From positions 1-5,972 of the forward strand of contig JALGWK010000112.1 in assembly GCA_025774205.1 (NCBI GenBank): 5,972 nucleotides of DNA, given 5' to 3'. The DNA is from a bacterium (GTDB taxonomy: Bacteria; Blakebacterota; Blakebacteria; Blakebacterales; Blakebacteraceae). Of the stretch, positions 1,234 through 5,908 are shown one piece after another. The position numbers and the translations under genes are program-made. How positions within the stretch are numbered: position 1 is the stretch's first letter; the number at the start of each line of letters is the position of its first letter. Below the pieces are notes generated by a model. That model saw only the letters and a list, made by a program, of their open reading frames with translations, was not told the DNA's origin and did no database searches.

Positions 1234-3879
1234 ATGAAGAAAGCACTCTCTACCCTGATCGTATTGCTCATGATTCCCGTCTGCGTGCAGGCCCAGACCA
1301 TTGAACCGTTCGAATGGTACCCTGACGGGACATATGACTCGTCGATACCGACACCGTGGGACTTCCTCGGTTACCAGATCGGTGATGATTACACCTGGCA
1401 CCATGAGCTGCAGGCCTATATGGAGGCTGTTGCCGAAGCCAGCGACCGGGTCACGATCCGTTCATTCGGGGAAACGTATGAAGGGCGTGATCTGCTGCTG
1501 CTGACTATCTCAACGCCCGAGAACCTCGCCAGAGCGGAGGAGATCCGCCGGAACATGGCAACGCTCGCTGATCCGCGAGGGGTACAGAACAGCAGACTGT
1601 CATCGATTATCGAGAACAGTCCGGCGGTGGCCTGGCTCACTTACAATGTCCACGGCAGTGAATCCGCGGGTACCGAAGCCGCGCTCCTGACCGTCTACCA
1701 GCTGGCTGCCGGGACCGACGAAGTGACGAGGAACATCCTGGATGAGCTGGTGGTTATGGTCGCTCCCCTGCTCAATCCGGATGGTCGCGACCGGGTTGTG
1801 GCCAGTTACAAGAAACGGAGTGGATCGGTGCCCGATGCCACCCCCGAATCGTGGGAACATGGTTCCGACTGGCCCGGTGGCCGGACCAACCACTTCATGT
1901 TCGATCTCAACCGCGACTGGGCGTGGCAGACCCAGATCGAAGTCCAGGCGATCATATCCGAGCTCCTGCAATGGAATCCGGTCGTGCATGTCGATTTCCA
2001 TGAGATGGGGGGCGACTCCTACTTCTTCTTCCCGGCAGCGACTCCGGTACATGATGCGTTCCCCGATGTCATAATGAAGTGGCAGCAGTACTACGGGGAA
2101 GGGAACGCGGCGGCCTTCGATCACTATGGATGGCCCTACTACACCAAAGTGGGATTCGACATGTATTACCCTGCGTTCGGTGATTCGTGGCCGAGCATGA
2201 TGGGTGCGATCGGCATGACCTATGAACAGGGTGGTGGCGGTGGGGTCGCCATCGTCCGGGAACAGTCCGACGGAACGGTCCACTCACTCAGGCAGAGGGC
2301 TCACGGACACTTCACCACCTCGATCGCAACCCTCCGAACGACCGCCGAGAAGAGGCAGGAACGGCTCCAGGATTTTCTCGCCTTCTTCCGGCATGCCATC
2401 AGCCTGGGAGACGCGGAGGTGAAGTCGTACGCGTTCGTTCCCGCGAAGGATCCCTACAACGCGGACCGGCTGGTGGACCTCCTGATACGGAACGGACTGG
2501 AAGTGAGCACGGCCACGCGTTCTTTCCGGGCTCGTGTGGTAGACAACTACGGACTCACCGAGGCACCGTCCTCGAAGGAATTCCCCGCCGGCACCTACCT
2601 TGTGGAGGCGGGCCAGCCGAAGGGGGTCGCCGTACAGGTACTCCTCGAGGTCCAACCGACGCTTGAGGACACCAGTTTCTACGATCTATCGGGCTGGACC
2701 CTGCCACTGGTCTATAACGTAGAGGCCTATACGCTCTCTGAAGTCCCCGGCGTCGATCGAACCCCGGTGACCAGTCTTCCCGTTCGCGCGGGCGGCATCG
2801 AGGGCGGTCGGGCGGAATATGCCTGGGCCATACCGTATGACGGCACGTCGGCACTGCTGGCGGCGCTTCACCTGCTCAACCGTGACATCAGGGTGAGTTC
2901 AGCTGGGGAATCATTCACCATCGGCGGTCGCGAATATCCTCCAGGAACCTTCGTTATACCGCTCTATCGCAATCCGGATGACCTGCATGAGATCATCGCA
3001 GAGATCGTTTCCGAGCATGGAGTGACCGCCTACCCCCTGAATACCGGTCTTGTAGAGGAGGGGACCGACCTGGGAGCGGGACTCTACCGTCAGCTGGAGA
3101 AACCGCGGGTGGCCGTTCTGGCCGGTGAGTCGGCAGGTGGTTCGTTCGGGCAGGCATGGCACTTCTTCGACCAGCGATACCCGTGGTTCGATTACACCCT
3201 TGTCGACGCCTCACGGCTCGGCCGGACCGATCTGAGTGATTACAACGCCATCATCCTCGCCGGATCACTCGACGAACAGGAAACGGCGGCGATGAACACA
3301 TGGCTCCAGGGTGGAGGTGTCCTCCTGGCCTGGGGCGGCGGTGCCCGCACGGCAGCCACGATGGCCGGAATCACCATGGGCAGCGGTGGCGGGGGTGGTG
3401 GACGTGGGGGCGGCATGATGGGTGGTGGCGCTGCTGGTGGTGACACTGCTGGCGGCGGCGCTGCAGCCAGTGACGGTGGAGATGAACTGGCGATCGATGC
3501 CCGCCGGACACTGGCTGAACGGGAGCAGGAAGCGAAACTGCGCCGCACTCCCGGCGGCATGTACGGCATCGTGCTCGATCCCGACCACTGGATGGCTTTC
3601 GGCATGCCGGAGCGGATGGGGATCCTCAAGCGGGGCGGCACGAGTTTCGATATTACCGACCGGGGCGTGAATGTGGGCGTCTTCCTGCCGGAGCCGCTGC
3701 TGTGCGGCTATGCGGGACCTGATTTCGCCAAGGGACTCTCGACCCAGGCCTGGCTGGTTGCCGGAAACGTCGGCCGGGGCAAGGTCGTCCTCTTCGCCGA
3801 CGATCCGCTCTGGAGGATGTTCATTGAAGGAGAACATCAGTTCGTCCTGAACGCGCTGATTCTCGGCCCGGGTTACTAG
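1234..3879 (+). CDS. Secreted M14-family zinc carboxypeptidase-like protein with C-terminal amidotransferase-like region
   Basis: An 881-residue exported metallopeptidase. Residues 1-20 are a signal peptide with likely cleavage at VQA|QT. Cys17 does not sit in a good lipobox. The M14 domain spans about 50-370. Its zinc ligands are His140 and Glu143 (NVHGSE) and His256 (VDFHEMG). NPDG (181-184) and Asn226-Arg227 in LNRDW match the carboxylate-binding Asn-Arg of carboxypeptidase A, and Glu331 in MTYEQ fits the catalytic base. All expected catalytic residues are present, so it is probably active on peptides outside the cytoplasm; the substrate is unknown. After a middle region (about 395-620), residues 624-880 look like a class I glutamine-amidotransferase-type fold (KPRVAVLAG, DYNAIILAG, LQGGGVLLAWG). 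This part probably has no amidotransferase activity, because no nucleophile Cys is visible in it. A Gly/Met/Ala-rich insert (716-749) interrupts it. The gene is monocistronic by appearance. Its TAG stop overlaps the left end of the palindromic element at 3878. Confidence 0.9.
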   Translation: MKKALSTLIVLLMIPVCVQAQTIEPFEWYPDGTYDSSIPTPWDFLGYQIGDDYTWHHELQAYMEAVAEASDRVTIRSFGETYEGRDLLLLTISTPENLARAEEIRRNMATLADPRGVQNSRLSSIIENSPAVAWLTYNVHGSESAGTEAALLTVYQLAAGTDEVTRNILDELVVMVAPLLNPDGRDRVVASYKKRSGSVPDATPESWEHGSDWPGGRTNHFMFDLNRDWAWQTQIEVQAIISELLQWNPVVHVDFHEMGGDSYFFFPAATPVHDAFPDVIMKWQQYYGEGNAAAFDHYGWPYYTKVGFDMYYPAFGDSWPSMMGAIGMTYEQGGGGGVAIVREQSDGTVHSLRQRAHGHFTTSIATLRTTAEKRQERLQDFLAFFRHAISLGDAEVKSYAFVPAKDPYNADRLVDLLIRNGLEVSTATRSFRARVVDNYGLTEAPSSKEFPAGTYLVEAGQPKGVAVQVLLEVQPTLEDTSFYDLSGWTLPLVYNVEAYTLSEVPGVDRTPVTSLPVRAGGIEGGRAEYAWAIPYDGTSALLAALHLLNRDIRVSSAGESFTIGGREYPPGTFVIPLYRNPDDLHEIIAEIVSEHGVTAYPLNTGLVEEGTDLGAGLYRQLEKPRVAVLAGESAGGSFGQAWHFFDQRYPWFDYTLVDASRLGRTDLSDYNAIILAGSLDEQETAAMNTWLQGGGVLLAWGGGARTAATMAGITMGSGGGGGGRGGGMMGGGAAGGDTAGGGAAASDGGDELAIDARRTLAEREQEAKLRRTPGGMYGIVLDPDHWMAFGMPERMGILKRGGTSFDITDRGVNVGVFLPEPLLCGYAGPDFAKGLSTQAWLVAGNVGRGKVVLFADDPLWRMFIEGEHQFVLNALILGPGY
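3379..3480 (+). repeat. Glycine-rich low-complexity insert within the M14 gene
   Basis: Codons 716-749 are dominated by GGN/GGC with some Ala, Met and Arg: a run of six Gly, then RGGGMMGGG, AAGG and AGGGAAAS. It is in frame and flanked by ordinary sequence of the C-terminal domain, between the strand LLAWGGGARTAATMAGITM and a charged helix ELAIDARRTLAEREQEAKLRR (751-771). It is most likely a flexible surface loop that grew by slippage of GGN codons. Confidence 0.75.
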
Positions 3880-4058
3880 GAGCCTGTCGGAGTAAGCCAC
3901 CGGCTGCGGTATGTGCTGGCATCCGGCTGACGGCGTTGGCTTTCGCCGGATGTCCTCAACGTAGCACAGTGGCTACGTTTCCGGGCCTCCGGCTCAGCCG
4001 CCTGGTCGGCCGGCGCCAGCCCAAACCTCGCGTTCGCCGGTTACTCCGACAGGCTCCT
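3878..4058. repeat. 181-bp palindromic element (MITE- or REPIN-like), possible bidirectional terminator
   Basis: The ends AGGAGCCTGTCGGAGTAA (3878-3895) and its exact reverse complement (4041-4058) form an 18-bp perfect inverted repeat. The stem can continue after a 4-nt bulge with CCGGC (3900-3904) and GCCGG (4036-4040). Inside are three further hairpins: 3920-3927 with 3945-3952 (8 bp), a central one 3958-3965 with 3972-3979 (8 bp, loop ACAGTG), and 3984-3993 with 4009-4017 (imperfect). The central hairpin is centred within half a base of the element's midpoint, and the left and right halves align with each other as diverged inverted copies. It encodes no plausible protein. No target-site duplication is visible at the ends. 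It lies between two convergent genes, where a strong RNA stem could end transcription from either side, although no T-run follows. Confidence 0.85.
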
Positions 4059-4059
4059 G

Positions 4060-4071
4060 TGTCACGTGACA
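4060..4071. promoter_or_regulatory. 12-bp perfect palindrome next to the element
   Basis: TGTCACGTGACA is a perfect palindrome starting one base after the right end of the 181-bp element. A second, overlapping dyad is formed by GTGTCA (4059-4064) and TGACAC (4072-4077). It lies between convergent genes, which is an unusual place for an operator, so a remnant of a mobile-element flank or a chance palindrome is equally possible. Confidence 0.35.
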
Positions 4072-4098
4072 TGACACTGGAATATGAGGATGGTCGCG

Positions 4099-4122
4099 GG
4101 GGCGTACAGGTATGTACGCCCC
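4099..4122 (-). terminator. Hairpin downstream of the OmpA-family gene, candidate terminator
   Basis: GGGGCGTACA (4099-4108) and TGTACGCCCC (4113-4122) form a perfect 10-bp stem with a 4-nt loop, 55 bp after the OmpA stop codon on the minus strand. The position and the compact GC-rich stem suit an intrinsic terminator or an mRNA 3'-end stabiliser. The downstream sequence on the minus strand is C-rich with no U-tract, so it is not canonical. Confidence 0.45.
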
Positions 4123-4177: not shown

Positions 4178-5908
4178 CTATTCAGGGGGAATGCGTCGGT
4201 ACTTCGCCAACTCCTCTGTATTGAGCACCTGGAATTCCACGCGACGATTCAGGGTTTGCCCCGTTTCGGTGTCATTCGAGGCATATGGCCGTGATTCCCC
4301 ATAACCGACAACCGTGAACTGGCTCAGGGAGAGCTCTGAAACGTTCTCGAGCAACCAGTTGAGAACCGCCTCGCCGCGTATCCGGCTCAGCCGTCGGTTG
4401 TAGGCGTCTGAACCGAAATTGTCGGTGTGCCCGCCGATCTCGATCCTCAACTCGTTGTAACGGGCCAGGATGAGACCGACTTCTTCCAGTGTCTGGAACG
4501 ACACGGGCTTGATGTTCACCGTGTCGAAGTCGAAATAGATGGTGTTCAGCGTCAGGAGTCCCCTGGTAATCAGCTCCGCTTCCATCCCGTAGATGCCACG
4601 TCCCTCGGCAGTGACCGGTATCCCGCGGGGCGTGTTCGGTTCCACGTCAATCCCGTCGGGAACCCCGTCATCGTCCGAATCGACCGCGCGGCCGAGATTG
4701 TCGACGGCGGCTCCGGCAGGAGTACCCGGCTCCCGGTCGATCCCGTCGGGGATTCCGTCACCGTCACCGTCGAGCGCCTTACCTTCGCTGTCGACCCTGG
4801 CTCCCGCCGGAGTCGCGGGTTCCTGGTCGAGTCCGTCAGGGATACCGTCGCCATCACCGTCGAGTGCCCGTCCCTCGCTGTCGACGAGGGCTCCTGCGGG
4901 CGTGTCCGGTTCCTGGTCGGTTGCGTCCGGCACACCGTCCCCGTCACTGTCACCAACGACAGGTTCGATGACCTCCGGTTCCGGTTCACGCCGGCGTCGC
5001 TCACGGGGCTGACGCTCCGGCTTCTCAGCCTGTTCGGGACGCTCCTGGCCGCCGAATACGACTTCGATACTCGAATAGATCATCCAGGCCCCGTATCCGT
5101 TCATCTCGTCGAGACGGTAGACGGCGAGGCTCCTCAGGTATCCGCCCCTGAGGTTCAGCCATGGCGCCAGGTGGAAAATGGCGCCCCCGCTGGTGGCGAT
5201 ATAGTCATCCCTGTAATAGTTCCCTGCCGCCAGTTCGGGCTGGTAAAGCGTCTCTGATTCGATGCCGATCCAGCTGGCCGGCCACCAGGTGATCCCCAAT
5301 CCGATCTGGCCGCGATTGGGCAGGTTGACAAGAGCCTCTTCGGTAATGACCACCGCCTCGGACAGGCGGATATCAAAGGAGCCCTTCCGGAAATCCTGCA
5401 TCATGCCGAGTGAGATGTCGAAGGTGTCCCGGGCGTAGGTAACGTTGTGTCCCGGGAGTCCGATATCGGAGATCCCGGGGGTCAGGGAGGCGTTGAAGGC
5501 AAAATGGAAAGCCCGGTCAACGCGACCGGGCAATCCGAAGGTCAGGCTGATCGGACCGACGGAGTAACCGGTGGTGCCGCCGGTGAACACGAACGGACCT
5601 GTGCCGGTACCGGTATTGTACGCGCTTATGACGGCGCTCAGCTGGATGCTGTTGGTCAGGCCATAGGCCAGACCAAGGGAGCCCAGAAGGACATTGGCGG
5701 TGCTGTCCCTGGTCACATTTCCGAAGGTGCTGATGGCGATTGCCCCTCGGGGGAGGGTCTGCCCTGAAGGAACGAGCAGGCCGCCGCGCAGACCGGTCGG
5801 ATGGGCGGATTGAGCCTGGCCGGGCGTACCCGCGGTGAGGACCACAAGAGTAGTCGCGAGGAGCAGGCGGCGGAGTAAGGAATTGGTGCTCATCAGAGAT
5901 CTCGGCAT
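4178..5908 (-). CDS. OmpA-family outer-membrane protein: beta-barrel, TSP3-type calcium repeats, OmpA_C peptidoglycan-binding domain
   Basis: A 576-residue envelope protein expected to link the outer membrane to peptidoglycan. In order: signal peptide (about 1-33, cleavage near GQAQS); a region of alternating amphipathic strands (about 36-286) ending IEVVFGG, which reads as a small outer-membrane beta-barrel; a charged Pro/Glu/Arg linker (287-318); four Asp-rich 30-residue repeats (320-439) of thrombospondin type 3/OmpA-linker type; and an OmpA_C domain (about 453-562). The last contains YFDFDTVNIKP, GGHTDNFGSDAYNRRLSRIRGEAV and a closing NRRVEF. Asp496 and Arg511 have the same 15-residue spacing as the diaminopimelate-binding Asp271/Arg286 of E. 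coli OmpA. The start at 5908 is preferred because AGGTG lies 5 nt upstream and overlaps the preceding gene's stop. An alternative Met6 (5893) would give a more compact signal peptide. It is probably co-transcribed with the upstream gene. Strand count and pore activity are not determinable here. Confidence 0.9.
   Translation of the reverse strand: MPRSLMSTNSLLRRLLLATTLVVLTAGTPGQAQSAHPTGLRGGLLVPSGQTLPRGAIAISTFGNVTRDSTANVLLGSLGLAYGLTNSIQLSAVISAYNTGTGTGPFVFTGGTTGYSVGPISLTFGLPGRVDRAFHFAFNASLTPGISDIGLPGHNVTYARDTFDISLGMMQDFRKGSFDIRLSEAVVITEEALVNLPNRGQIGLGITWWPASWIGIESETLYQPELAAGNYYRDDYIATSGGAIFHLAPWLNLRGGYLRSLAVYRLDEMNGYGAWMIYSSIEVVFGGQERPEQAEKPERQPRERRRREPEPEVIEPVVGDSDGDGVPDATDQEPDTPAGALVDSEGRALDGDGDGIPDGLDQEPATPAGARVDSEGKALDGDGDGIPDGIDREPGTPAGAAVDNLGRAVDSDDDGVPDGIDVEPNTPRGIPVTAEGRGIYGMEAELITRGLLTLNTIYFDFDTVNIKPVSFQTLEEVGLILARYNELRIEIGGHTDNFGSDAYNRRLSRIRGEAVLNWLLENVSELSLSQFTVVGYGESRPYASNDTETGQTLNRRVEFQVLNTEELAKYRRIPPE
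4592..4951 (-). repeat. Four tandem 90-bp units encoding calcium-binding-type repeats
   Basis: Unit boundaries on the minus strand are 4862-4951, 4772-4861, 4682-4771 and 4592-4681, with an exact period of 30 codons. Each unit opens with D-x-D-x-DG(I/V)PD-x-xD, the Asp array that binds calcium in TSP3-type repeats, followed by EP-x-TPAGA-x-VD and a short linker. Units 2 and 3 keep the DGDGDGIPDG core. The fourth unit diverges after TPRG and runs into the OmpA_C domain. Confidence 0.85.

Follow-up and report, generated by a model that had tools for sequence, protein, structure and literature searches.

The window analysed here, the whole 5,972-nucleotide stretch of contig JALGWK010000112.1, raises the question of what the long palindrome between its two convergent genes is and how it came to lie there. 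The upstream gene, of the M14 zinc carboxypeptidase family (PF00246; 1234-3879, + strand), ends at the palindrome, and its convergent neighbour (4178-5908, - strand) encodes an OmpA-family C-terminal domain (PF00691); features given below without a strand have none assigned. The arms reported in the first-pass annotation (3878-3895 and 4041-4058) are indeed 18 nucleotides each, 100% complementary and 145 nucleotides apart, and the 181 bp that it delimited (3878-4058) are palindromic, but the true element, with limits taken from the insertion analysis, occupies 3879-4057 (179 bp), the extra base on each side being flank. This full-length copy (GGAGCCTGTCGGAGTAA...TTACTCCGACAGGCTCC, that is GGAGCC...GGCTCC) begins with a left terminal inverted repeat of 17 bp, or 18 bp with the flanking A (3879-3895, + strand), and ends with its counterpart at 4041-4057 (- strand). 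The element has no coding capacity and, from end to end, is a 72% match to its reverse complement.

The element is multicopy. A search of its own genome, G000 (a 3.09-Mb MAG of 527 contigs with 86% completeness), returned 15 matches, one of them the reverse complement of the window copy itself, leaving about 14 full or partial copies. Those on C363 (the window) and on C106 are full-length; a divergent copy of 178 bp lies on C72, and the others are truncated or shortened. Among 40 other genomes searched, only three, all of the same family, contain the element, and they hold more copies of it: G001 (JALGVQ, bacterium Meg19_1012_Bin_119), G002 (JAGLTZ, Latescibacterota RS_11_2) and G003 (JAUVWC, labelled Zixiibacteriota CSMAG_1180). 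The end sequence, with the consensus GGAGCCTGTCGGAG(A/T)AA, is present in all four genomes of the phylum sample, its AAA form in 24 exact copies in G002, and across 84,980 scanned species genomes the 18-bp end occurred mainly in G001-G003, two Dehalococcoidia MAGs, one Tectomicrobia and one Rokuibacteriota MAG. Copies are mostly located at gene borders. The element is neither single-copy nor limited to orthologous positions, either of which had been named beforehand as speaking against a mobile repeat. Rfam gave 0 covariance-model matches to the element at gathering score, the plasmid collection gave no match, and the viral contigs gave one exact 16-bp match with the rest of the element absent.

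Nine insertions, the window's included, have element-free orthologous sites in relatives. The window copy is missing at the orthologous site of G001, and the peptidase gene there closes with TAC TGA, not TAC TAG; the copies on C164, C170, C220, C391, C176, C340 and C487 are likewise missing from G001, and that on C379 is missing from G002. Because the alignments over several of these gaps are loose, they are evidence for absence and not for the exact sequence before insertion. The cleanest filled and empty pair, CCTTTTA-(56-bp element)-TAGGGG at G002:C370 versus CCTTCTAGGGG at G003:C233, displays a 2-bp TA duplication. Direct repeats of the flanking dinucleotide (TA/TA, CA/CA or TG/TG) border 21 of 35 bounded insertions, a hand-curated list that takes in two ISs and three MITEs (miniature transposable elements) of another phylum, where permutation gives an expectation of 12.8 (p = 0.0002); an automatic list, some false ends included, still gives p = 0.0005-0.002. 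A 4-bp CTAG duplication was also considered, but the CA/CA and TG/TG sites do not agree with it. A 2-bp duplication is thus supported for the family but not seen at the window copy, where the left flanking dinucleotide, at the position of the target duplication, is TA (3877-3878) and the right one is TG (4058-4059), making the duplication imperfect.

In 11 of 30 insertions, the window copy among them, the flanking dinucleotide joins the element's first G to form the stop codon of a neighbouring ORF (mechanically called, at least 90 codons) on one or both sides, whereas such a stop begins at 5.0% of the TA sites of this DNA (p = 1.2e-7); because this control takes in TA sites within genes, part of the excess is purifying selection against intragenic insertions. 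The TAG stop of the peptidase ORF (3877-3879, + strand) is built in this way, from the flanking TA and the element's first base, in place of the TGA of its G001 orthologue. It follows from the sequence that an element with a first G restores a TAG stop when the TA that it enters belongs to a stop codon. Such insertions would be harmless, which would let copies survive at gene 3' ends, a simple and testable route to harmlessness for a palindromic parasite. Also between the convergent genes, at 4099-4122, two perfectly complementary 10-bp arms (GGGGCGTACA/TGTACGCCCC) enclose a 4-nucleotide loop; this inverted repeat lacks a T run and is possibly a factor-independent 3'-end hairpin.

Shorter forms of the element, all with GGAG...CTCC at their limits, fall into distinct sizes (92, 64-66, 56, 32-34 and 23-25 bp). 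In the full-length sequence, the points that are joined in the 56- and 23-bp forms carry identical short words (CAGGC and GCTCC), which would be expected of deletions across a palindrome. The proposed course of decay is that the long palindrome, once inserted, would be unstable and would lose internal segments by deletion, the joints in several cases carrying short repeats that match, and would shrink by way of 92, 66, 56 and 32 bp to final scars of 23-25 bp. At the C72 locus, G000 has the 178-bp form, G001 a scar of 23 bp and G002 no element, which indicates that at least that scar arose in place. Short forms may also move themselves, as is allowed by the 56-bp copies found between TA duplications at three different loci of G002.

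As single-stranded DNA, the 181 nucleotides fold at -65.3 kcal/mol, compared with -36.5 +/- 3.1 for shuffles (z = -9.2; 0 of 200); the same strand as RNA folds at -118.8 (z = -9.9), and the opposite strand is equally stable. The internal hairpins noticed at first pass (CATCCGGC/GCCGGATG and AACGTAGC/GCTACGTT) are present as sequence, but the four-way cloverleaf with three hairpins that had been proposed reaches -45.8 kcal/mol versus -64.0 for a single long hairpin with AACGTAGC-ACAGTG-GCTACGTT (3958-3979) at its centre. The latter, one long imperfect hairpin, had been offered as the alternative fold, and is favoured by both energy and compensatory changes. Over 15 copies from three genomes, 91.8% of its cells are paired, and two-sided compensatory change affects 18 of 70 pairs (33 cells), compared with 8.4 pairs and 10.1 cells in shuffles and 2-4 in slid controls; with the terminal repeats and the apical hairpin removed, the interior retains 12 of 46 pairs (23 cells) against 5.8 and 6.9, all of these counts being inflated by kinship among the copies and referring to a structure taken from the window copy. 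The slid controls serve as one internal check and the cloverleaf as another, its arms having covariation at 2 pairs (4 cells), no excess over shuffles. RNAalifold predicted the apical hairpin alone from the gappy 15-row alignment, and recovered the long hairpin from the five full-length copies only. The hairpin is therefore kept by covariation over its whole length across copies. A plain MITE requires its ends only, and for this reason full-length covariation needs explaining: folded source copies may be favoured by selection, the fold may play a part in mobility or in RNA, or palindromes may be corrected by template switching. The question also arises of whether selection acts on the fold of some MITEs as well as on their ends.

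The enzyme responsible is suggested by the ends. On a Dehalococcoidia contig (L123, JAUVZB010000010.1), two exact 18-bp ends with the flanks CTA...TAG lie 1.6 kb apart, with one transposase gene between them, the product of which belongs to the IS1182 family (NF033551, 380 bits versus a cut-off of 270) and has the domains DUF772 and DDE_Tnp_1. A transposase flanked by the same ends, to be looked for according to the first-pass annotation, was thus found in a MAG of another phylum but not in the element's own genome, and the confinement of exact ends with a transposase to another phylum counts against an IS1182 mover. The TA duplication is likewise a point against it, as the family member IS1272 is reported to exchange stem-loops and to leave no duplication (PMC5678879), and so are the unmatched TA/TG flanks of the window copy. 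G001, of the same genus as G000, carries a 1,585-bp IS with an IS1182-family transposase (338.8 bits), the ends of which, GAGCCTGTCC(A/G)(G/A)CAAACC, resemble those of the MITE without being identical. No IS1182 transposase was found in G000, G002 or G003, but these assemblies are 63-86% complete, so a missing partner weighs little. The interior of the MITE has no resemblance to either IS (L123 or G001) beyond the ends; similarity beyond the terminal repeats is not demanded of all MITEs. MITEs of about 166 bp in Dehalococcoidia CSMAG_1257 and CSMAG_1233 (L191, L193, L120) have the same 17-18 bp ends and the same CTA...TAG flanks, whereas their interior is unrelated and they are not full-length palindromes, which implies that the ends are the common feature of these elements. 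The element is a non-autonomous MITE, and we infer that its mover is an IS1182-type enzyme, probably a DDE transposase of that family supplied in trans. This enzyme would recognise the ends of about 17 bp (GGAGCCTGTCGGAG(A/T)AA) and move the 179-bp unit into a TA or other pyrimidine-purine dinucleotide, which would be duplicated. The miniature transposable element suspected at first pass agrees with the multiple copies, the conserved ends, the element-free orthologous sites and the transposase bordered by these ends elsewhere. In Dehalococcoidia CSMAG_1257 (JAUVZB), many contigs break inside copies of IS1182-family ISs or MITEs (L212, L214, L215), and the IS of L123 (L123:1573-3180) sits in frame inside an upstream ORF.

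Other movers deserve consideration. The MITE could conceivably have been moved by a different DDE transposase that targets TA, for instance one of IS630 (Tc1/mariner-like) or of an IS5 subgroup, with convergence or remote relation accounting for its IS1182-like ends; elements driven by IS630, RUP for example, habitually make a 2-bp TA duplication (PMC2229807), and the link to the IS1182 family is drawn from the ends only. We consider this unlikely, because all 18 of 18 end bases and the CTA...TAG flanks bound an IS1182-family transposase, related ends are found on the only IS1182-family IS of the genus, and the CA/CA and TG/TG sites contradict a strict TA rule. An IS1182-type enzyme might instead replace existing hairpins and leave no duplication, as IS1272, a member of the family, is reported to do with stem-loops (PMC5678879); this mode was suggested by the C106 site, the orthologue of which in G001 (C298) holds a different 24-bp hairpin, and the IS1182-family IS of G001 lies between CCTTTT and AAAAGG. 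However, the flanks of the 35 insertions have an excess of direct dinucleotide repeats (p = 0.0002) and no excess of dyads (p = 0.94), statistics that rule out stem-loop replacement as a general mode and, with the clean TA duplication at G002:C370, make it an improbable account of the family. Least credible is the first-pass option of a REPIN (REP doublet), for which the mover would be a RAYT, a Y1 tyrosine transposase. REPINs and GTAG REPs with their RAYTs are similar in having inverted halves and hairpins and in lying downstream of genes (PMC3116915, PMC3733652), and the MITE is likewise palindromic and intergenic, with GGAG ends and many shortened hairpins. It differs from them in its target duplications of 2 bp, in its ends, which are those of an IS with a DDE transposase, and in having no RAYT gene: PF01797 (Y1_Tnp) had 0 matches in G000-G003, while the same search was positive in five control genomes, and the element is therefore not considered a REPIN.

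It is also doubtful, more so than stem-loop replacement though less than a REPIN, that the hairpin is a host structured RNA or 3'-end element co-opted from a repeat, transcribed with the upstream gene to protect or end mRNAs. Its position right after stop codons, the very stable RNA fold and the covariation along the whole hairpin, which persists when the terminal repeats are excluded, would suit such a role, but template-switch correction or selection on mobile source copies would produce the same covariation, no intrinsic terminator was predicted, and Rfam has no match to the element. Moreover, most orthologous sites are element-free and most copies are shortened, so that no single site needs the hairpin. 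Returning to the IS1182-mobilised MITE, we tentatively infer, with low confidence, that the whole hairpin could be part of the mobility signal, with an IS1182-type transposase moving or copying the element in the form of an extruded cruciform or a folded strand. This would explain the covariation of pairs along the full length, the presence of short forms (for example, of 56 bp at three sites) between 2-bp duplications at different loci, and the similar long-hairpin design of a second family of 160 bp in the same genomes.

Several known elements are comparable. In Methanosarcina acetivorans, the IS1182-linked MITEs related to ISMac2 (160 and 169 bp, with repeats of about 17-26 bp, in 7-14 copies) resemble the window MITE in size, inverted repeats and the assignment of their ends to an IS1182-family partner, whereas the host domain and the named partner are different and the duplications are of 4 or 0 bp instead of 2 bp, a comparison made by description (PMC3852290). 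RUP of S. pneumoniae (107 bp, IS630-linked) and ERIC of enterobacteria (127 bp) are gene-less intergenic elements of 100-200 bp with a terminal TA, the transcripts of which would fold as long stem-loops, as would that of the window MITE; they differ from it in ends and hosts, and RUP in its link to IS630 rather than IS1182-type ends (PMC2229807). YPAL or RU-2 of Yersinia (about 168 bp) is a palindromic MITE that likewise forms a long hairpin and has filled and empty sites, but it lacks the terminal TA and makes duplications of 3-26 bp beside dyads (PMC2229807), in contrast to the 2 bp and the lack of dyad excess of the window family. In the library of papers searched, none joins Latescibacter* with miniature inverted repeats, and the MITE family appears to be undescribed, as the first-pass annotation had thought possible. 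The element is of an ordinary kind, a MITE, and the family is apparently new, its notable features being stop-codon-preserving insertion and conservation of the hairpin over its whole length. For a poorly known uncultured lineage, this provides a MITE family in which the same sites can be compared in the filled, the empty and the decayed state.

Other palindromic repeats occur nearby. The MITE in the window abuts a remnant (TGTCACGTGACATGACAC, 4059-4081) of the second palindromic family, which is about 160 bp long with the ends GTGCCCTGTCACGCAAC...GTGACATGACAC, folds largely as a long hairpin and has about 41 matches in G000; another partial copy (1160-1195, - strand) lies upstream of the peptidase gene, and full copies include L315:1411-1570, L327:1411-1570 and L328:1503-1662. 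No known family matched this second family, and its homology to the MITE is marginal only. The two often adjoin, as in the window and at G000:C44:6489-6512. Near position 2800 of G000:C487 is a chimera with one end from the MITE and the other from the second family, and at G001:C298 (L258), the orthologue of C106, the MITE is swapped for a 24-bp hairpin of the second family. A third palindromic motif (TTAGTGCACCGTTCCGCAAT...) recurs beside insertions in G002 and G003, at L035 (left flank), L047 and L089.
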